A stretch of DNA of 8,112 nucleotides from Candidatus Hydrogenedentes bacterium CG07_land_8_20_14_0_80_42_17 (GTDB taxonomy: Bacteria; UBA8481), in NCBI GenBank assembly GCA_002780065.1, contig PEWQ01000103.1:1-8112 (forward strand). The letters run 5' to 3'. Under the pieces are notes generated by a model that was not told the DNA's origin, did no database searches, and worked only from the letters and a program-made list of their open reading frames with translations. How positions within the stretch are numbered: the stretch's first letter is position 1; every line of letters starts with the position of its first letter. The position numbers and the translations under genes are program-made. Positions 1 through 7,989 of the stretch are shown here, one piece after another.

Positions 1-195
1 AACCGCAACGAGGTAAGCCGTGTTATTGTAAACGGAATCACGAACACATGGAATGAATTCAAAATTCCGATATCGCAATTCACCGGTATTACGAATCGAT
101 CGGAGATGACGGAGATAATCCTTCTTGTCGACGCACAAACAGCATCGGCTCCAAATGGAGTTCTGCTGATTGACGACTTCAAGTTGATCAAATAA
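1..195 (+). CDS. C-terminal fragment of a CIA30/CBM11-like carbohydrate-binding domain protein (5' end outside window)
   Basis: Frame 1 is open from the window edge and ends with TAA at 193-195, giving 64 residues. The fragment contains NGIT..W..F.IP (from residue 11), then F.GIT, then a hydrophobic strand (EIILLVD) and the terminal LLIDDFKLIK. The same order of motifs closes the two carbohydrate-binding proteins coded on the other strand at 212-1069 and 2355-3125, where it reads GIT..WTRF.IPLK.F..I.DWT and ends in a hydrophobic strand plus D(D/E)I.F. It is therefore the end of a third member of that beta-sandwich family. What lies N-terminal (anchor, signal peptide or enzyme domain) cannot be seen. 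It is the only plus-strand gene here and it converges on the minus-strand operon with a 16-base gap. Family assignment rests on similarity within the window and recalled family features, not on a search. Confidence 0.82.
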   Translation, partial: NRNEVSRVIVNGITNTWNEFKIPISQFTGITNRSEMTEIILLVDAQTASAPNGVLLIDDFKLIK

Positions 196-211
196 TTATC
201 TCTTATCGACG

Positions 212-1069
212 CTACTTGAACATGATCTCATCGAAGAAGAGCAAGCCTTCCTTTACATCCGCAAGTTCCGGAGTGATGACAACCGTCATCTCCTTCATTC
301 GGGTCCAATCAGTTATGCCCTTGAAATTCTTCAACGGTATGTCAAATCTGGTCCACTTCGCAGTGATGCCTTCGACTTGAGTAGTTCCCACCTCTTCTTG
401 GTTCTTCATCTCCAGCTTAACCCGCGACATGCCGCTCATGTTGCTGGCTGAAGACTTAATCATCATGGAGAGGATACGATAGTGCGAGAGATCGAGTGTC
501 TGCCGATCAGGTCCGTTCTTGAACTGAATCCAGATTCCGCCGAAGCCAGGATTTGGAGACTCAATGTCGTACCAGAGTTTCAGTGCATATCCTTTTGAGC
601 CGAAACGATTAATCGGATCGTAAGATTCGAGAAACTTAATTGTCGGGTCAGTGGGATCGCTCACCCATCCGCCCACAGGACATGACCACTCACGATCAGT
701 GACACCGTCCTTGTCAAAGTCGCAGACGAGAAGTGTCCCGACCGGCGGCGAATCCACGTCAGCCTTCTGCTGTTCAGCATTCAGCTTAGAGCGAATTACG
801 TCTATGTCAGGTGCCTCTAAAACCACAATCTCCCGATTCGCCAAGACGCTGTCGCCGATATCGATACCGACGAGAGATTCATACAAAGTCGGTCTGATTA
901 GATCCTTCAGTGTGATACGGTCATCGGGCTTTATTGCGGTATTGATGGTGTAGGCGGCGTAGTAGAAGAGCAGAATTGAACAGGTAATCACAATAAAAAG
1001 TATAGTTAAGATAAGTAGTCGAAAGTTAAGACGACGATGACCGGCAACCTTGAGCTGTTCTTGCGTCAT
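212..1069 (-). CDS. Membrane-anchored protein with CIA30/CBM11-like carbohydrate-binding domain
   Basis: The 285-residue protein starts with a basic stretch (HRR.NFR, residues 11-17) followed by one hydrophobic helix at about 18-40. This predicts a short cytoplasmic N-terminus and a periplasm-facing remainder. Residues 43-110 are an unassigned polar linker. Residues about 112-285 form a jelly-roll type binding domain: a start strand LLVCDF, GGW..DP.D.T near 133-143, YDIESPNPGF.G.W at 167-180, a DLS.Y strand, K.EMKN, GIT..WTRF.IPLK.F at 234-249, and a C-terminal hydrophobic strand ending FDEIMFK. These blocks are shared with the neighbour at 2355-3125, so the two are paralogous domains with different anchors. 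No catalytic motif is visible, so a glycan-binding or scaffold role is inferred. It is the last gene of the operon. Its ATG overlaps the preceding stop (ATGA, 1066-1069), with GGAG at 1077-1080, seven bases upstream. Confidence 0.85.
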   Translation of the reverse strand: MTQEQLKVAGHRRLNFRLLILTILFIVITCSILLFYYAAYTINTAIKPDDRITLKDLIRPTLYESLVGIDIGDSVLANREIVVLEAPDIDVIRSKLNAEQQKADVDSPPVGTLLVCDFDKDGVTDREWSCPVGGWVSDPTDPTIKFLESYDPINRFGSKGYALKLWYDIESPNPGFGGIWIQFKNGPDRQTLDLSHYRILSMMIKSSASNMSGMSRVKLEMKNQEEVGTTQVEGITAKWTRFDIPLKNFKGITDWTRMKEMTVVITPELADVKEGLLFFDEIMFK

Positions 1070-2355
1070 GACGTCGCTCCAGTCTCAAGAGCATGCGCGA
1101 TTACCTCGCGAATTTCAGCATCCTCGGGGCTTAGGAAAACAGCCTTGTCAAAATTCTCCATAGCCTCCCGCCGTTTTCCGAGTGCAATCTGCGCCAGACC
1201 CATGTTTATAAAGAGATCAGGGTTATTCTTCAACTGCTCGCCCACCTTCTCAAAATGAGCCAGCGCGGATTGAAAGTTACCCATACGAAGATACGTAGTT
1301 CCGATATTAAAGTGCAGGCGCCGCCGGTCCGGCAACTTTTCCAAAGCCTTAAGAAAATAGTCGAGTGCCTTTTCCGGCTCATCCAGCCGGTAATAACAAT
1401 CTCCATAGTCATTGAGCACAAGAGCATTGTCCTGCTTATCGAGTGAAATCTTATTCAGCAGTCCCAATTTTTCGCGAGCGGCGGTACGCGATTGATCAAG
1501 CTTCAATTTTCGATGCGCCACCACGAGCGCGTCAGCCGAGAGTGCGGCCCAAGCATGTCCATCGCTGCTACGCACCACTTCTCCGAAGCGTTGCATTGCG
1601 AGATGCAGATTATTCTCTCGAAGAAGCCGGCAACCATCTCGATATCCGTTCGCCGCAGACGTAAAGTCGAGCCAACCGTCGCGATAGCCTAATATACCGC
1701 CTCCGATGAGCACAGAGATCATAAGCCCAGCGGCGAACGCAAGCCACGACTTGCGACGCGGCACGGTCGCAATCTCGACGAACGCCTTCTCCGAAAAACG
1801 CACCCACTCCCCGCGCTCCGCAGACCATATGAGATCTTCATTTGACACAGCCTTCTGTCTAATTGAATCCATAACCTCAGATGTGGTCAAAGGGCCGTAC
1901 TGCCGATGATCCTTGTTCGCGAAAAGATACCATGAACGTGCCGGCCGTTCCTGCATGTAATAGCGGTGCTCGCGCCACTGTATGAAGTTTTTGAGATACT
2001 CAATGTCATCAGTGCTGATGCTGCTAAATCTAATTGCAATAAAATATTTATACCCCGGCGTCCATGACGGCTCAGAGCGCAGTATCTTTCCTTCAATCGC
2101 ATCAAAAGGACGTTCCTTGGGCAGGTCGAGAGTGACCTGAACCGTAGTTCCCTCCAGACGTGACGGAAACTTTCCGGAGACAAGGTTGAGCCGGCCGGCC
2201 ATGCCTTTCTCATTCAACCCGGTTGTGTATCCATCAAAAAGAAGGTTTTCCGCACCGCTGATCTTAATCGGAACCTGCATGGTAACTAGACGCCGATTGC
2301 GCTGATCCTCTCCTTCTTTATTGCTATGTTTTGACAGCAAACTCATATCCCCCAT
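1066..2355 (-). CDS. PilZ-GYF_2-transmembrane-TPR protein
   Basis: Four parts are visible in 429 residues. Residues about 19-130 look like a PilZ beta-barrel: a basic start (RNRR at 19-22), VPIKI, then GLNEKGM at 46-52 where PilZ proteins carry D/N-x-S-x-x-G, and later strands such as YFIAIRF. Residues 142-190 match GYF_2: WY at 142-143, YGPL at 153-156, DLIW at 174-177, and W184. A basic PRRK (199-202) precedes a hydrophobic helix at about 204-224, placing PilZ and GYF_2 in the cytoplasm. The remainder, probably periplasmic, holds helical repeats, with three clear TPR units at about 312-345, 346-378 and 379-412. The second PilZ arginine aligns with Leu23, and D/N and S are replaced by Gly46 and Asn48, so c-di-GMP binding is doubtful. 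The gene overlaps its neighbours by 1 base (TAATG) and 4 bases (ATGA). Met4 (codon 2346-2344) is an alternative start. The function is inferred to be envelope sensing or scaffolding for the glucan-related neighbours. Confidence 0.85.
   Translation of the reverse strand: MGDMSLLSKHSNKEGEDQRNRRLVTMQVPIKISGAENLLFDGYTTGLNEKGMAGRLNLVSGKFPSRLEGTTVQVTLDLPKERPFDAIEGKILRSEPSWTPGYKYFIAIRFSSISTDDIEYLKNFIQWREHRYYMQERPARSWYLFANKDHRQYGPLTTSEVMDSIRQKAVSNEDLIWSAERGEWVRFSEKAFVEIATVPRRKSWLAFAAGLMISVLIGGGILGYRDGWLDFTSAANGYRDGCRLLRENNLHLAMQRFGEVVRSSDGHAWAALSADALVVAHRKLKLDQSRTAAREKLGLLNKISLDKQDNALVLNDYGDCYYRLDEPEKALDYFLKALEKLPDRRRLHFNIGTTYLRMGNFQSALAHFEKVGEQLKNNPDLFINMGLAQIALGKRREAMENFDKAVFLSPEDAEIREVIAHALETGATS
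1077..1080 (-). promoter_or_regulatory. Ribosome binding site for the last operon gene
   Basis: GGAG on the minus strand lies seven bases before the ATG at 1069, within the end of the PilZ-TPR gene. It supports this start, which also forms the ATGA overlap. Confidence 0.6.
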
Positions 2356-3125
2356 TACCTCCAGAAATAAATGTCGTCGATAAAAATAGCTCCCACTTTT
2401 TTGGTTGCCATCTCGTCATCAAATACAATTACAAATTCCGAAATTTTCGTCCAGTCATTGATAGAATAAAATTGCTTGAGAGGAATTCGAAAGCGTGTCC
2501 AGTCATCAGTGATTCCATCTATGATAACCGGGCTCTTCTCACCAACAATATTATTCTTCAATTCCACCTTAATTCGCCTGGTAAAACCTTTTTCATGGTC
2601 GCCCCGCACATAGAAAACAAGTTCTTTGTACCCTGAAAGATCAATCTCATTCAGCTTCATCCAAAAGCCGTTGAAAGCCGGATTAGGCGATTCAACGTCA
2701 TAAGTAAGCTTGAGGCTGATGCCGGCGCCGACACCGTGGTTTTCCAGACTGAACTCCTCCATACAGCCTTGAGTTTCGTCAAGTGGATCACGGTTCCATG
2801 CGCCGTAGTTGCCGCCAATAAGATTCGGCTTTTCTCCGTCGTTGAAGTCGTCGATTAGCAGAACATCGGACTGCGTAGCAGATGAAATCGCGTTGGTCTC
2901 TCCTTCAGTCACCTGTGTGTCGGCTTTTACCACTCTCATGCCTTTGAGCGGTGATACGTTGACTTCCTGCCCAGACTTATCTGAGTTCTGATACGTTGAT
3001 GCGTCTCCGACCGAAGACGCATTCTGTTCTTTACCGCACGCGGCCGATAGAATTAGGAAAATGCCAACCAAAACAGAAATACCGAATCGCACTCGTAGCG
3101 GCCGGAACATAACAATTTTCTTCAT
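2355..3125 (-). CDS. Probable lipoprotein with CIA30/CBM11-like carbohydrate-binding domain
   Basis: The protein has 256 residues. The N-terminus is a signal sequence: basic MKK...RPLRVR, a hydrophobic core at about 14-29, and LSAAC ending at Cys30. The lipobox is imperfect, with Ser rather than Leu at -3, so lipidation is likely but not certain. Residues 31-86 are a Ser/Thr/Asp/Asn-rich linker of the kind that tethers a surface or periplasmic domain. Residues about 88-256 form a binding domain with LLIDDFNDG, GG..GAW..DP.DETQ (104-119), YDVESPNPAF.GFW (142-155), DLSGY, KVELKN, GIT.DWTRF.IPLKQF from 204, and a final IDDIYFWR. The same blocks occur in the proteins at 212-1069 and 1-195. From memory, such domains often accompany PF10091 glucoamylase-like enzymes, which agrees with the upstream neighbour. 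No enzyme motif is seen, so glycan capture for the hydrolase is an inference. Its start overlaps the upstream stop (ATGA, 3122-3125) and has a strong ribosome binding site. Confidence 0.88.
   Translation of the reverse strand: MKKIVMFRPLRVRFGISVLVGIFLILSAACGKEQNASSVGDASTYQNSDKSGQEVNVSPLKGMRVVKADTQVTEGETNAISSATQSDVLLIDDFNDGEKPNLIGGNYGAWNRDPLDETQGCMEEFSLENHGVGAGISLKLTYDVESPNPAFNGFWMKLNEIDLSGYKELVFYVRGDHEKGFTRRIKVELKNNIVGEKSPVIIDGITDDWTRFRIPLKQFYSINDWTKISEFVIVFDDEMATKKVGAIFIDDIYFWR
2358..2362 (-). promoter_or_regulatory. Ribosome binding site with ambiguous start choice for the PilZ-TPR gene
   Basis: The minus strand carries GGAGG only two bases before the ATG at 2355, and eleven bases before a second in-frame ATG at 2346 (Met4). 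Neither spacing is ideal. The first start forms the TAATG junction with the upstream stop and suits re-initiation, while the second has a workable though long spacing. The choice changes the protein by only three residues. Confidence 0.55.
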
Positions 3126-5173
3126 AATTTTCCTCCCAGAATAACGCGGCCCAATGTAATCCCAGGATCATGAAAGAACCATGTGAGTTTGGCCTTGTTC
3201 GAAATGTCCTTGTCATTCACCGCTACATTTAATTGCATGATCTTTCCCGGCAAGGGTGTGACGCCGAGAAACTTCCAGTCAATCGCGGCCTCGATCACGT
3301 AATCATTAGCGCGCACAGAGGATGCAACGCGAATGTTCTCGCCGCCGTCGAACTTCTGGAACCATGCCCAGCTTCGCGCTCCGCCGCCTTCAGGACTGCT
3401 CGGCGTCAGGCCAATCTGAAAATCATTAGAACTGCCCCATGCTAAATTGTTATTCTCAGGATCGATATAAATTTCCACGAGGTCGTCCAAGAAAATCTTG
3501 GTCGGGTCGGTCTGAAGCGTAACCAGCTCATCGTCTTTCACCACAGCTAGAATATACAATGCTCGCTCGTCATAAGCAATTCTTACGTCAGCGTGTATAT
3601 CTCCAACTCGCTGAATTGACCCGTCCTCCAGATTTGTCTTCGGATCGAGCATAATTTGCGTATCAACATGCCAATCGCCAGGATTGCCATCAATGACCGG
3701 AGGAGCGGTTAGGAGCGGTATAACAGCGGTAGGCTGTTGATCCAGCTTCGATTCAAAATACTCGCAGATGATCTCCTGATTGTTGCCGGACATTTTACCC
3801 TCGATGAATCCTGCGAGTTTCATACCTCGCTGAACGGCATCATTCTGCATGAACTCGCGCCAAACTTGACCGGTCAGAAAATTCTCGATCATTAACATGA
3901 TCGTGCCCTGATCAATGGCAAGAACTTCCTGTGACTGCCAATTCTTGTCGAGGTTGAAAGCATCTGTGAAACCATAATGTCCCCAGAACTGCGGATATTT
4001 TTGGTAAACATACTTTATGAAATCGATAGACTCACGCGGAGTGAAGACAATAGAACCGATCGCAGCCGTGGGGGCGATGGTGCCGTCATGCAGAGCTCTA
4101 CCAGGCTTAGCACCGTAAGCATGGTATCCGTCCGGCGCCTGACATGCGGTCAGCCCCCAGACGTTTGGACCATAGGTCGAGAAGTTAGTCATCTCGTCGA
4201 TGCAAAATTGACGATTAGCCAGCGTTGCCTGAATCGAATTCTGAAAATAGTCGGCATAGTCGTCGTGCTTGTTGCGCAGGTCGAACCATACCTGAGGGTA
4301 CTGGTGCGTGAAGAGCGGCGCCGAAGCAATGCAAGTGTGTTCTCCATAACGCGACATAGGCCGCGATAACTCGTGCCACACACTAGGCGGGAGCGGATGT
4401 GTGGGCGAGCCAATTGCAAGAAGATACATAAGCACAGCCTCACTGTAGTGGTCCCATCTCCATTCCTGAAAGCCCTTCTCGGGGCTCCAGCCTAGTGCTA
4501 GAGTGCGTCCGCCATTCATCATCCATGGCCAGTCCATCCGCTCATACAGCTCGCGCGAAAGTTTTTCCACCTCAGTCCCCTTGAAATATTGTCCCGCGTG
4601 AAGAGCTCCGGCAATGAATAGCGTTGAGTCGATGGGCGACAGCTCGCTCTTCCAAGTTCTCACTCCGCTCTTAATGTCCACAAAGTGATAGAAGAATCCA
4701 TGAACCTCCTGCATCCTGCTGAAGAACTGTAATGTTCTAAGTGCGCGATTGTATGCCTGCTCGCGTGTTATCCAGCCTTTTTCAACACCAATGCAGTATC
4801 CGGAAAGAGCATAGCCTGCCCCGGCAATAGTGCTTGGCGAATAATCTAAAGGTGTCTTGTAGCGATAGCTGGCGCGGTCCTTGATCAGTCCGTTATCTGT
4901 ATTGCACTCGTTCCAGAAAAAATCAAACGCGGACTTCTCGACAAGCTCAAGAAGTTCCCGCTCCTCGGCAGATATTGCAAACGGAATTCCCGTTGTGCTC
5001 ACAGGTTTCTTCCAAGCAATCGGAACAGCAAAGAGAGCCGCGATCAAAATGACAGCAAGACTAGCGAAAAAAAATCGGCGCCGCCAGACTCGGCTAGACC
5101 AAATGCTATCGGCCCTTCTATCCGAATCTCCATTCGTATTTTTATTAGAAGATAGAAACTTTGATTTCTCCAC
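3122..5173 (-). CDS. Membrane-anchored GH144/PF10091-type glucan hydrolase with C-terminal CBM9-like domain
   Basis: Numbering follows the longest frame (TTG at 5272, 716 residues). I prefer the GTG at 5173, which gives 683. A basic RVWRRR (61-66) precedes one hydrophobic helix (67-86), predicting a membrane anchor with the rest outside. Residues about 100-490 match the glucoamylase-like PF10091/GH144 family: ELSPIDSTLF.AG (210-222), WDHYSEAVLMYLLAIGSPTHPLP (273-295), HQY..VWFD.R (323-333), DYF.NS..ATLANRQFC (341-357), YGPNVWGLTA..APDGY (367-383), DGT.APTAA.GS..FTP (396-412), YGFTDAFN (433-440), and LAIDQGTI.LMIEN (451-464). GH144 members cut beta-1,2-glucan, but the substrate here is unproven. 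Residues about 518-716 are a CBM9-like beta-sandwich: PPVIDGNPGDW (524-534), VRIAYDERALYI (563-574), DDLVEIYIDP (596-605). Such a fusion suggests the enzyme is held on its glycan. No in-frame ATG occurs before Met187, which lies inside the catalytic domain, so the start is non-ATG and uncertain. Confidence 0.9.
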   Translation of the reverse strand: MEKSKFLSSNKNTNGDSDRRADSIWSSRVWRRRFFFASLAVILIAALFAVPIAWKKPVSTTGIPFAISAEERELLELVEKSAFDFFWNECNTDNGLIKDRASYRYKTPLDYSPSTIAGAGYALSGYCIGVEKGWITREQAYNRALRTLQFFSRMQEVHGFFYHFVDIKSGVRTWKSELSPIDSTLFIAGALHAGQYFKGTEVEKLSRELYERMDWPWMMNGGRTLALGWSPEKGFQEWRWDHYSEAVLMYLLAIGSPTHPLPPSVWHELSRPMSRYGEHTCIASAPLFTHQYPQVWFDLRNKHDDYADYFQNSIQATLANRQFCIDEMTNFSTYGPNVWGLTACQAPDGYHAYGAKPGRALHDGTIAPTAAIGSIVFTPRESIDFIKYVYQKYPQFWGHYGFTDAFNLDKNWQSQEVLAIDQGTIMLMIENFLTGQVWREFMQNDAVQRGMKLAGFIEGKMSGNNQEIICEYFESKLDQQPTAVIPLLTAPPVIDGNPGDWHVDTQIMLDPKTNLEDGSIQRVGDIHADVRIAYDERALYILAVVKDDELVTLQTDPTKIFLDDLVEIYIDPENNNLAWGSSNDFQIGLTPSSPEGGGARSWAWFQKFDGGENIRVASSVRANDYVIEAAIDWKFLGVTPLPGKIMQLNVAVNDKDISNKAKLTWFFHDPGITLGRVILGGKL
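3131..3137 (-). promoter_or_regulatory. Strong ribosome binding site for the probable lipoprotein
   Basis: The minus strand reads GGGAGGA followed by AAATT and ATG, a near-ideal Shine-Dalgarno site with five-base spacing. It lies inside the last codons of the hydrolase gene, whose stop overlaps this start (ATGA, 3122-3125). It is the best ribosome binding site in the operon, so the binding protein may be made in larger amounts than the enzyme upstream. Confidence 0.8.
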
Positions 5174-5320: not shown

Positions 5321-6442
5321 TCAATCCGAGTAATCATTTCTTACTTCTTCAAATATTTCAAAAAGGCTTTTACCAATTGATGACCATCTCAAATAGTTCT
5401 TCGCATATTCTTGAGCATCAAGAAGCATCGGAGCAAAGGAAGATATATCCTTGCGAATTCTTCCGAGCAAACTCATTACATCTTCAGGCTTTTTGAAATC
5501 CGCTGTAAATATCAAACCTTGCCTCGCAAACTCATTTTCAGTTCGATGCCGATCCGATGCTATCACAGGTTTCCCTGATGCTAAATATTCAGCCATTCGA
5601 GTCGGCATACCCACGTGTTCTTCTCTTCTCGGAGGCTGAATCAAAATATCCGCAGAGGAAAGAAGCAGAGGCATCTTTTCAGGCTCAAACGCGCCAAGAA
5701 ACCGCACAGGCAGACCTCTAGCCATAATTTCGAATTTATTTTTAGAGGAGCCTTCGCCCGCAATCCATAACTCGCAATCTTTAAAACTCTTTGCAAGGCG
5801 CATCAGTTCCTCCACTCCTTGCCACTCATTTAAATGTCCGACAAACAAAATAGAATAAATGTTCTGAGGAATATTGAGTATTTTTCTAGCTTCATCTCTA
5901 TCAGTCAAAGCCCCGAAAAAATTGTCGGCAATACCCATCGGCAAAACTCTGAACTTATCGAGTGAGATTGCCAATCTCTTTCCAACTCGTTCAGCCATTG
6001 CGGCTGAGGTCACAATAATTCGAGAAGCGCTCTTCAAAAAATTATATTCCGTATATCTGGACAATACTCGTTCTCGAAATGAACGCTCACGCATCTGGAA
6101 CTCGAGATCGCCGTTCAAATCCGCAACGAGCGGCACTCTCAATCGCCTCGCGGCAAGCCACGGAGCAATACTCTGATATTCAACTCTTCCGAAGATTAAA
6201 GCCGGCTTCGAATTTTTTGCGGCGCTCATAACCGCATCCAACATCTTCTTTTGAGACAGCAATGTTCCCAACAAAGCAATATTAACTTCTGGTATTTCCA
6301 CCGACCCTGTCGAATCGTCTCTTCTCAAAAAAGAGAGCACATCGAGACCTGCAGTGCGCATTCCCTCTATGAAACCTTTGATATGAGAAGTCGTACCATT
6401 TTTTCGATCGAGATAACCTTCAGTTATGTAAAAAATTTTCAT
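5321..6442 (-). CDS. GT-B glycosyltransferase, GT4 type
   Basis: The protein has 373 residues, normal for GT4 enzymes, which transfer a sugar from a nucleotide donor to a growing glycan on the cytoplasmic side of the membrane. The N-terminal Rossmann half starts with MKIFYITEGY and has an acceptor-side glycine/Ser-His segment (NGTTSHI, 15-21). The C-terminal donor-binding half begins near 197 with ILFVGHLNEWQGVEEL, the usual strand-plus-loop. GMPTRMAEYLASGKPVIAS at 278-296 is the GT4 signature in its P-T-(K/R)-x-x-E-Y version, with Glu285 as the expected donor-ribose contact. No membrane segment or signal peptide is visible. Donor and acceptor cannot be told from sequence. Its ATG overlaps the flippase stop (ATGA, 6439-6442) and no clear Shine-Dalgarno site precedes it, so translation is probably coupled. 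Context suggests lipid-linked oligosaccharide or exopolysaccharide assembly, or a nearby capsule-type pathway. Confidence 0.9.
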   Translation of the reverse strand: MKIFYITEGYLDRKNGTTSHIKGFIEGMRTAGLDVLSFLRRDDSTGSVEIPEVNIALLGTLLSQKKMLDAVMSAAKNSKPALIFGRVEYQSIAPWLAARRLRVPLVADLNGDLEFQMRERSFRERVLSRYTEYNFLKSASRIIVTSAAMAERVGKRLAISLDKFRVLPMGIADNFFGALTDRDEARKILNIPQNIYSILFVGHLNEWQGVEELMRLAKSFKDCELWIAGEGSSKNKFEIMARGLPVRFLGAFEPEKMPLLLSSADILIQPPRREEHVGMPTRMAEYLASGKPVIASDRHRTENEFARQGLIFTADFKKPEDVMSLLGRIRKDISSFAPMLLDAQEYAKNYLRWSSIGKSLFEIFEEVRNDYSD

Positions 6443-7989
6443 TTCTGTTTCAGCGCTCTTCGAGCCTCAATGATTTCTCCAATCCGATCGATAAGTTCGT
6501 AAATATCCGCAGACCGAATCAAAAATAGAAATGCAAAGTACACAAAGACTCCTGTCAAAGCTCCTATCGTAAATCCCGCCAAAGAAGAAAAACTATATGC
6601 AAAGATATATGCAATGCTGGAGGCGAGAAGCGCTGATAAGACGTCAAGTGAAAATGACTTAAAAATCCTCTTCAATTCGCTTTCATCAAAATGAAATTTC
6701 ACGACAAAAATCTGAAGTCCAAACGAGAGATAATTCAGAAGGACAAATGCAGACGCAATTCCATAAATTCCCCATCGAGCAGAAAATACTCTTGCGACGC
6801 AAATATAGAAAAGTGCTTGAAACACCTTCAGAACGGCGATAAATCGGGTTTTACCCATAACGTAAAGAGCTCTGGCTGTAATCTCTGCAAGCGTCATTCC
6901 GCCAAGCGCTATGAGATAAATCCGAAGCACGCCTGCCACCGCGCCGGAGTTCTCTAGAGTGAACGCTCCGCGCTGAAAGACTATCTCCACAAGCTGATTT
7001 GAAAGCGCAATTCCAATCAGAATTGCCGGAGCTGTAAAGAGCCAGATGAATCTCAAGCCTTTAGATATGGTTTGCACAAACCCTTTTATGTCGGAGCGCG
7101 AATTTTCCGCGGCCATTCTCGGAAAGAGCACAGTGCTGACGCTTCCGGAAATCACAATTGAAAATAACGTAAGAAGTTTCATTGCGTATCCCAAATGCGA
7201 AATGCTTCCTTCTGCCATGTAGGAGGCTAAATACCTGTCAATCAGAGGAATAAGCTGAATAAATAAATTAGAGAAAAAGAGCGGCCAGAGCATTTTGAAA
7301 ATCTTATGCAGTTCAGGATTGAAAAGAGTGATTTTAAATTTCCAAATATTTTTCAAAAGCGGCAGAAGCAATACAGCCTGCAAAAAAACACTTATTGTTG
7401 CGGCGTAAGCCATTCCTTTTATGCCGAATCTTACTCCGAAGGCTATAAGAAGAATTAAATACATTATTCCGCCAATTACCGGTGTTAAAGCCTGCCACAC
7501 AAATTTTTTTAACGATTGGCTTAGATAAGTCAGCATCGTTATAATTCCGCACGCTGTAATGGTTGGCCATAAAATAAGAGCTATCGAATGCGCAGTTTTA
7601 AATGAAACCGCATCGAGCCCCGGCACGAGCAATTCTAGAATTCTCTTCGATAGAATCAAACTTGCCGCCGTCATCAAAATAAAAATCAGAAGCACAATAT
7701 TGAAGATTGTCGAAGCAAGTTCACTCGCTTTGGCAGTGCCTTTCTTTTCAAGAGTATCTACGAAAACCGGAATGAAAACAAATCCGATAGAGCCTAGAAA
7801 TACCGACACGATATACTGTGGCAGTGCGTTTACTGCCATGAATGCGTCCATATCTGAACCTGCTCCGAAAAGCGCGGCTGATATTACAGACGTCAAAAAA
7901 CCCAGAGCCTGCCCTGCAAACGTCGCAATAGTGACTACAATAATCGCACTCGAAGAACTTTCTTCTCCTTCAAAAAGCTTAAATTGCAT
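6439..7989 (-). CDS. MurJ/MviN-like flippase (MOP superfamily), probable glycan-lipid flippase
   Basis: The protein has 516 residues, close to the usual 500-530 for MurJ, and is hydrophobic throughout, with segments consistent with about 14 helices. Family motifs are LFGAGSDMDAF (40-50), FIPVFV (72-77), VFQRGAFT (337-344) and TARALYVMGKTRF (371-383). These proteins move undecaprenyl-linked glycans across the inner membrane. Aligned by eye with E. coli MurJ from memory, the arginines needed for lipid II flipping appear replaced: R18 by Gln27, R24 by Thr33, R270 by Lys271. The Asp39 equivalent (Asp48) is kept. Together with the coupled GT4 gene this favours a polysaccharide-unit flippase over the housekeeping lipid II enzyme, so I give no murJ symbol. 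It lies 8 bases after the upstream stop, in an AT-rich gap without a good ribosome binding site. Sampled G+C is near 33-43%, lower than in the operon to the left. Confidence 0.88.
   Translation of the reverse strand: MQFKLFEGEESSSSAIIVVTIATFAGQALGFLTSVISAALFGAGSDMDAFMAVNALPQYIVSVFLGSIGFVFIPVFVDTLEKKGTAKASELASTIFNIVLLIFILMTAASLILSKRILELLVPGLDAVSFKTAHSIALILWPTITACGIITMLTYLSQSLKKFVWQALTPVIGGIMYLILLIAFGVRFGIKGMAYAATISVFLQAVLLLPLLKNIWKFKITLFNPELHKIFKMLWPLFFSNLFIQLIPLIDRYLASYMAEGSISHLGYAMKLLTLFSIVISGSVSTVLFPRMAAENSRSDIKGFVQTISKGLRFIWLFTAPAILIGIALSNQLVEIVFQRGAFTLENSGAVAGVLRIYLIALGGMTLAEITARALYVMGKTRFIAVLKVFQALFYICVARVFSARWGIYGIASAFVLLNYLSFGLQIFVVKFHFDESELKRIFKSFSLDVLSALLASSIAYIFAYSFSSLAGFTIGALTGVFVYFAFLFLIRSADIYELIDRIGEIIEARRALKQK

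Follow-up and report, generated by a model that had tools for sequence, protein, structure and literature searches.

What might a putative beta-1,2-glucanase, two separately anchored glycan-binding proteins and a membrane-spanning PilZ protein have to do with one another? The question is raised by contig PEWQ01000103.1 of Candidatus Hydrogenedentes bacterium CG07_land_8_20_14_0_80_42_17, analysed here over its entire length of 8112 bases (hereinafter, the window; the assembly comprises 2.39 Mb and is 87% complete), on the minus strand of which four genes follow one another with overlapping ends. In the direction of transcription, these encode a membrane-anchored enzyme of the glycoside hydrolase family 144 (GH144) beta-1,2-glucanase type with a C-terminal carbohydrate-binding module (CBM) of family 9 (GH144-CBM9, 3122-5173), a CBM11-like probable lipoprotein (2355-3125), a PilZ-GYF_2 protein with a transmembrane (TM) helix and tetratricopeptide repeats (TPRs) (1066-2355), and a protein that combines an N-terminal TM helix with a CBM11-like domain (TM-CBM, 212-1069). 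These four genes had been reported in a first-pass annotation together with three joints, namely ATGA (3122-3125) between the enzyme and lipoprotein genes, TAATG (2353-2357) between the lipoprotein and PilZ-GYF_2 genes, and ATGA (1066-1069) between the PilZ-GYF_2 and TM-CBM genes, and all were located as described, both in the open reading frames and by direct reading of the joints. From the joints it was argued that the products are made and probably act together, perhaps as a glucan-handling complex of the envelope. We come to a similar view, namely that the four products are likely to act jointly on a glucan of the cell envelope, by way of a stronger argument, the conservation of the gene set.

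Conservation of the gene set in a sister genome

Our sample of the phylum consists of two genomes, the home genome and that of Candidatus Hydrogenedentota bacterium J006, a member of the same order but of a different family. On contig C118 of J006, genes for a CBM lipoprotein, a GH144-CBM9 enzyme, another CBM lipoprotein and a single PilZ-GYF_2-TM-CBM chain lie in this order on one strand, and this GH144 copy is the only one in that genome. J006 encodes a second PilZ-GYF_2-TM-CBM fusion near the end of contig C117, and the home genome encodes a second PilZ-GYF_2-TM-TPR protein on contig C84, the gene of which overlaps that of a CBM lipoprotein in an ATGA joint, with Wza-like and Wzz/kinase-like genes after the pair; neither of these additional copies has a GH144 gene beside it. 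All four PilZ-GYF_2 proteins are linked to a CBM, by fusion in J006 and by gene overlap in the home genome, and a GH144 enzyme accompanies two of the four. The concern that the PilZ protein might normally sit with unrelated partners is not borne out in J006, where both copies are CBM-fused and one shares its locus with two CBM lipoprotein genes and the single GH144 gene of that genome. The envelope location and shared role that had been proposed for the products are likewise supported by the conserved gene set in J006 and by the C84 copy. The TPRs fare less well as a part of the cassette: they are present in the window and C84 adaptors but are not invariant, the J006 fusions having at most a remnant. 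That such a remnant persists between the TM helix and the CBM of the C118 fusion is suggested by the alignment of this protein with the C84 PilZ-TPR protein, which spans 437 amino acids (aa).

So what are the overlapping joints themselves worth? Across seven contigs or stretches of the home genome, examined with a simple gene caller that makes the count approximate, joints of the ATGA or TAATG type are possible in 17 of the 35 pairs of same-strand neighbours that were sampled; with the window set aside, the count is 13 of 30. Overlapping genes are ordinary in this genome and, because such joints are so common, coupling alone is weak evidence for joint function; translational coupling as proof of it was rejected once the overlaps had been counted. 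The step from coupling to joint work is thereby weakened, whereas the shared role itself draws its support from the conservation of the gene set.

The adaptor and its non-canonical PilZ domain

The window adaptor consists of a PilZ-like domain (2301-1978), a GYF_2 domain (1932-1789), a TM helix (1749-1684) and TPRs (1425-1096; Pfam match, E = 2e-18). For PilZ (PF07238, cut-off 22.5 bits), the window protein scores 24.4 bits and the C117 fusion 29.4, and the C118 fusion reaches 19.5 bits in the protein scan, under the cut-off, and 22.7 in the genome scan; C84 is not among the listed scores. For GYF_2 (PF14237, cut-off 25.8 bits), the C117 fusion scores 31.6, the window protein falls just short at 25.2, and the C118 and C84 proteins are under the cut-off at 21.7 and 17.1; the four proteins align without a break across this region, and the PilZ-GYF_2 part of the window protein is 43-46% identical to those of both J006 proteins. 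The GYF part most resembles, if weakly, the GYF domain of AgmX (7z3c, E = 0.003), and structure prediction from the single sequence of the adaptor was poor (predicted local distance difference test, pLDDT, 47). The TM helices carry basic residues on the N-terminal side and, from the signals and charge, we infer that PilZ-GYF_2 faces the cytoplasm and that the CBMs, the TPRs and the enzyme are located outside it.

The canonical motif of PilZ domains that bind cyclic di-GMP (c-di-GMP) comprises RxxxR and (D/N)xSxxG (PMC10333796). This motif is absent in all four PilZ-GYF_2 proteins, which have RxxR and TGLNE[NKH]G instead (one of them also has RxxxR, by chance of extra arginines), and is present in the other PilZ proteins of both genomes. 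Direct control of the adaptor by c-di-GMP is thus not supported by its PilZ motif. PilZ domains with [ST]G[IV]NENG replacing (D/N)xSxxG occur in other lineages, either on their own or following a receiver domain of the response-regulator type (L062, L063, L064, L065, L066), and related SGINENG-type domains are found in response-regulator proteins of another lineage; to judge by the motif, these domains constitute a non-canonical PilZ branch. As for the distribution of PilZ-GYF_2, a single-sequence scan of the genome contigs gave no match, an alignment-based scan detected J006 only, and no full PilZ-GYF_2 was found outside this phylum in 386 genomes spread over the domain or in 288 around a CBM-rich lineage.

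The CBM11-like proteins

Taken by themselves, the two window CBM proteins give no match to Pfam, and the CBM assignment is based on the profile matches of relatives, which are weak (CIA30, 1.5e-6; CBM_11, 4e-6), and on a structure model. The model of TM-CBM (mean pLDDT 73; 81-96 per ten-residue block from residue 191 onward) matches CBM11 (Z 16.6), a CIA30 protein (16.1) and CBM30 (15.2). The CBM11 and CBM30 families bind beta-glucan, and the title of 6r3m names a beta-1,3-1,4 tetrasaccharide. The product of 2355-3125 is a probable lipoprotein given its hydrophobic N-terminus ending in cysteine (LSAAC), and scores 245 bits against the A3 profile, of which it is itself a member.

TM-CBM corresponds to the CBM half of the fused J006 proteins: over 200 aa it is 45% identical to the C117 fusion and, over 235 aa that include the linker, 33% identical to the C118 fusion (residues 48-282 against 314-528). 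Because it matches the fused CBM through the linker, the PilZ-GYF_2 and CBM genes have been either split or fused. A tree built from 39 CBM domains places the four PilZ-linked CBMs in a single clade (support 97/95), with the window TM-CBM as the sister of the C117 fusion CBM (97/91); the window lipoprotein groups, in a weakly resolved part of the tree, near CBM proteins of other phyla, several of which are encoded beside CBM-GH144 enzymes. The two window CBMs sit on different branches, so that the cassette brings two units together, one of PilZ-GYF_2 and CBM and one of GH144 and CBM lipoprotein. Elsewhere (L061, G000:C39), a Ser/Thr-rich repeat protein is encoded by DNA that contains a run of N (8694-9536), and beside it, on the minus strand, is the gene for a weakly CBM-like lipoprotein (7798-8514).

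The GH144-CBM9 enzyme

The longest reading frame of the enzyme opens at a TTG (5272), and the GTG at 5173 was used as the start. An N-terminal TM helix is followed by the catalytic domain (about 4975-3767; PF10091, E = 2e-72) and CBM9 (about 3637-3179; CBM9_1, 8e-20). The catalytic domain matches GH144 enzymes in the PDB with E values from 2e-71 to 2e-60; over the whole (alpha/alpha)6 domain, about 390 residues, it matches XCC2207 (XcSGL; 8xul, E = 2e-71) and the CpSGL-type 5gzh (E = 1e-60). The reference residues of GH144 and clan GH-S are E239, F286 and Y367 of XcSGL, along with an acidic residue at the position of CpSGL E142 (PMC12102758). Compared with this reference, the window enzyme retains D182, E245, F288 and Y350 (numbered from the 5173 start), that is, the clan-defining acid, F and Y together with the candidate base. 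Given the GH144 structure matches and the retained clan residues, beta-1,2-glucan is our best guess for the substrate. A cyclic beta-1,2-glucan synthase of the NdvB type, which would be expected to match PF10091, was found in neither assembly, both of which are incomplete.

A second GH144-like branch (100/99 in the tree), mostly fused to an N-terminal CBM, includes L041 (G000:C198, 141-2273), L042 (G000:C158, 2281-4248), L100 (3373-5436), L101 (8159-10309) and L107 (2098-4047). L100, which belongs to another lineage, also has a gene for a TPR protein directly next to one for a CBM-GH144 enzyme (11772-15874), an echo of the TPR partner in the window.

What could the cassette do?

We tentatively regard the cassette as a trans-envelope glycan-handling module in which an inner-membrane adaptor couples the cytoplasm to the binding and trimming of beta-glucan in the periplasm. 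Under this scenario, the adaptor would take up a cytoplasmic protein signal via PilZ/GYF_2 and would gather the glucanase and the CBMs in the periplasm via the TPRs or its own CBM; the gathered parts would hold and trim a beta-glucan-containing polysaccharide, probably beta-1,2-linked, on its passage through the envelope, and the CBM lipoprotein, which probably sits in the outer membrane, would keep hold of the chain or pass it along. Polymer, signal and transport direction are all inferred in this scenario. An export role is favoured because polysaccharide genes adjoin both home copies, a flippase and GT4 gene in the window and Wza/Wzz on C84.

Several observations weigh against this reading. 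Only two genomes carry the cassette that is to support a joint function; there is no synthase in it; the canonical c-di-GMP motif is missing from every one of its PilZ domains; the MurJ/GT4 and Wza/Wzz counterparts in J006 lie away from the cassette; and the CBM/GH144-type genes of other lineages, as well as a home locus on C104, look catabolic, with GH94, GH35 and ABC genes.

The last point leads to the scavenging or sensing of glycans, a possible if somewhat unlikely alternative in which the CBM lipoprotein would capture external beta-glucan, GH144-CBM9 would cut it, and the adaptor would report the occupancy of the periplasmic CBM to the cytoplasm. The CBM family is more widely distributed, being present in 14 of 290 genomes, often beside or fused to a GH144 or GH144-like enzyme, and some of these loci also include ABC permease, GH35 or GH94 genes. 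The other-lineage loci L099-L101 and L107 resemble the window in that the CBM family and the GH144 or GH144-like enzyme are side by side or fused, but no PilZ-GYF_2 was found in those genomes or, outside this phylum, among the 288 centred on one of them. In the home genome, another CBM lipoprotein gene is oriented divergently with respect to genes for GH94, GH35 and an ABC ATPase, with two GGDEF proteins beyond (L060, G000:C104, 146-5271), in what looks like a beta-glucan breakdown locus. Furthermore, genes for a solute-binding protein and a LacI-type regulator are located about 1.4-3 kb downstream of the J006 cassette, although a DNA methyltransferase gene parts the cassette from the solute-binding protein (a TolC-type gene lies nearby on the other strand). 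The scavenging scenario is also at odds with the lack of a transporter or phosphorylase in the window, with an enzyme that is anchored in the membrane rather than secreted, and with the polysaccharide synthesis or export genes that adjoin both home copies. Export is favoured by the home neighbours, yet their J006 counterparts lack the cassette, and scavenging has good parallels elsewhere.

Could the cassette simply be two independent units set side by side, a PilZ-GYF_2/CBM adaptor and a pair of GH144 enzyme and CBM lipoprotein, with an operon but no task in common? At two of the four loci, C84 and C117 (the latter near a contig end), the PilZ-GYF_2/CBM unit lacks a GH144 neighbour, overlapping genes are common in the home genome, and the window CBMs belong to different branches. 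We nevertheless consider this quite improbable, given that the home genome and J006, which belong to different families, have both units next to each other and in matching order, with GH144-CBM9 proteins that are just 45% identical over 666 aa. An apparatus for surface attachment or motility, in which the GYF head would recruit a motor or polarity protein as in GltJ/AgmX of Myxococcus and the CBMs would grip own or foreign polysaccharide, has in its favour the resemblance of the GYF domain to that of AgmX and a similar order of cytoplasmic GYF, TM helix and periplasmic part, which is the AgmX architecture, but is very improbable considering the weakness of that similarity, the fact that no gliding genes were seen nearby and the presence of a hydrolase, which is not expected at the centre of such a machine.

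A bolder version of the trans-envelope module can be put forward, even if we consider it unlikely on the whole: PilZ-GYF_2-TM-CBM, whether fused or split with TPRs, might represent a transmembrane glycan receptor or adaptor of a new class. Without binding c-di-GMP directly, it would relay the occupancy of periplasmic polysaccharide to a protein partner in the cytoplasm and thereby determine the place and time at which a beta-1,2-glucanase trims the chain. In either version, the module would be a simple, testable link from cytoplasmic control to glycan binding and cutting in the envelope of a little-studied lineage. The J006 fusions make the partnership and the topology directly testable, and the conserved TGLNExG signature points to a use of PilZ different from direct c-di-GMP sensing.

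Neighbouring genes and contig boundaries

Upstream of GH144-CBM9, on the same strand, are genes for a GT4 glycosyltransferase (5321-6442; Pfam) and for an extra copy of a MurJ-like flippase (6439-7989; PF03023), joined to each other by ATGA; a gap of 147 bases separates the GT4 gene from the GTG start of the enzyme. A stronger MurJ is encoded on contig C191. The GT4 counterpart in J006 (40% identity over 361 aa) adjoins a MurJ-like gene elsewhere than the cassette, so that the pair is kept in both genomes (31% identity for the flippase and 40% for GT4; L133, 7895-10605, and window, 5321-7989); it is probably a polysaccharide synthesis pair, separate from canonical MurJ. Both neighbours were rejected as integral parts of the cassette since the J006 pair sits elsewhere without it, and Wza/Wzz were likewise not accepted as integral to the C84 copy since they are conserved in J006 without PilZ-CBM.

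At the other end of the window, a convergent gene is cut by the contig end, leaving a C-terminal fragment (1-195, plus strand; A3 profile, 60 bits; 34-37% identity to the other CBMs) that has the same CBM fold, terminates 16 bases from the TM-CBM stop and is the third CBM on the contig. Because the window is the entire contig, the cluster may be truncated on both sides. A PHROGs search gave nothing useful, and promoter and terminator scans yielded counts no higher than in shuffled sequence.

Comparison with known systems

How novel, then, is this arrangement? Secretion systems are known that employ PilZ on the cytoplasmic side, periplasmic TPRs together with a carbohydrate-binding module, and an enzyme that modifies or cuts the polymer (PMC9734138), and the cassette possesses the same kinds of accessory parts as synthase-dependent exopolysaccharide secretion (alginate Alg44/AlgK/AlgX/AlgL; cellulose BcsA/B/C/Z). 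It differs in having neither synthase nor beta-barrel porin, in the non-canonical PilZ motif, in combining PilZ, TM helix and TPR or CBM within one chain to which GYF_2 is added, in the anchoring of the TPRs in the inner membrane, and in an enzyme of the beta-1,2-glucanase type. No membrane-embedded processive synthase was found among the genes of the window, L033 and L034, these contigs being short enough for a more distant synthase to be possible; nor does the window encode an outer-membrane porin linked to periplasmic TPRs, the TPRs being on an inner-membrane-type anchor.

The individual parts have known relatives as well. The enzyme shares the fold family and the clan-defining residues of the GH144 beta-1,2-glucanases CpSGL and XcSGL (clan GH-S), to which it adds an N-terminal membrane anchor, a C-terminal CBM9 and the company of a PilZ-GYF_2 adaptor. 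The modelled fold of TM-CBM and the weak profile matches of relatives agree with the CBM11/CBM30/CIA30 beta-sandwich domains but, in the window and in J006, these domains come as stand-alone lipoproteins, TM-anchored or fused to PilZ-GYF_2, rather than as cellulase modules. With GltJ/AgmX of Myxococcus xanthus, the adaptor shares a GYF domain in a membrane protein (7z3c), but has PilZ and CBM/TPR in place of the other domains, and no gliding genes were seen; in the open literature searched, we found no paper describing PilZ with GYF and nothing relevant on GltJ/AgmX with GYF. Without the synthase of the known secretion systems, the cassette brings together familiar kinds of parts in a differing architecture.

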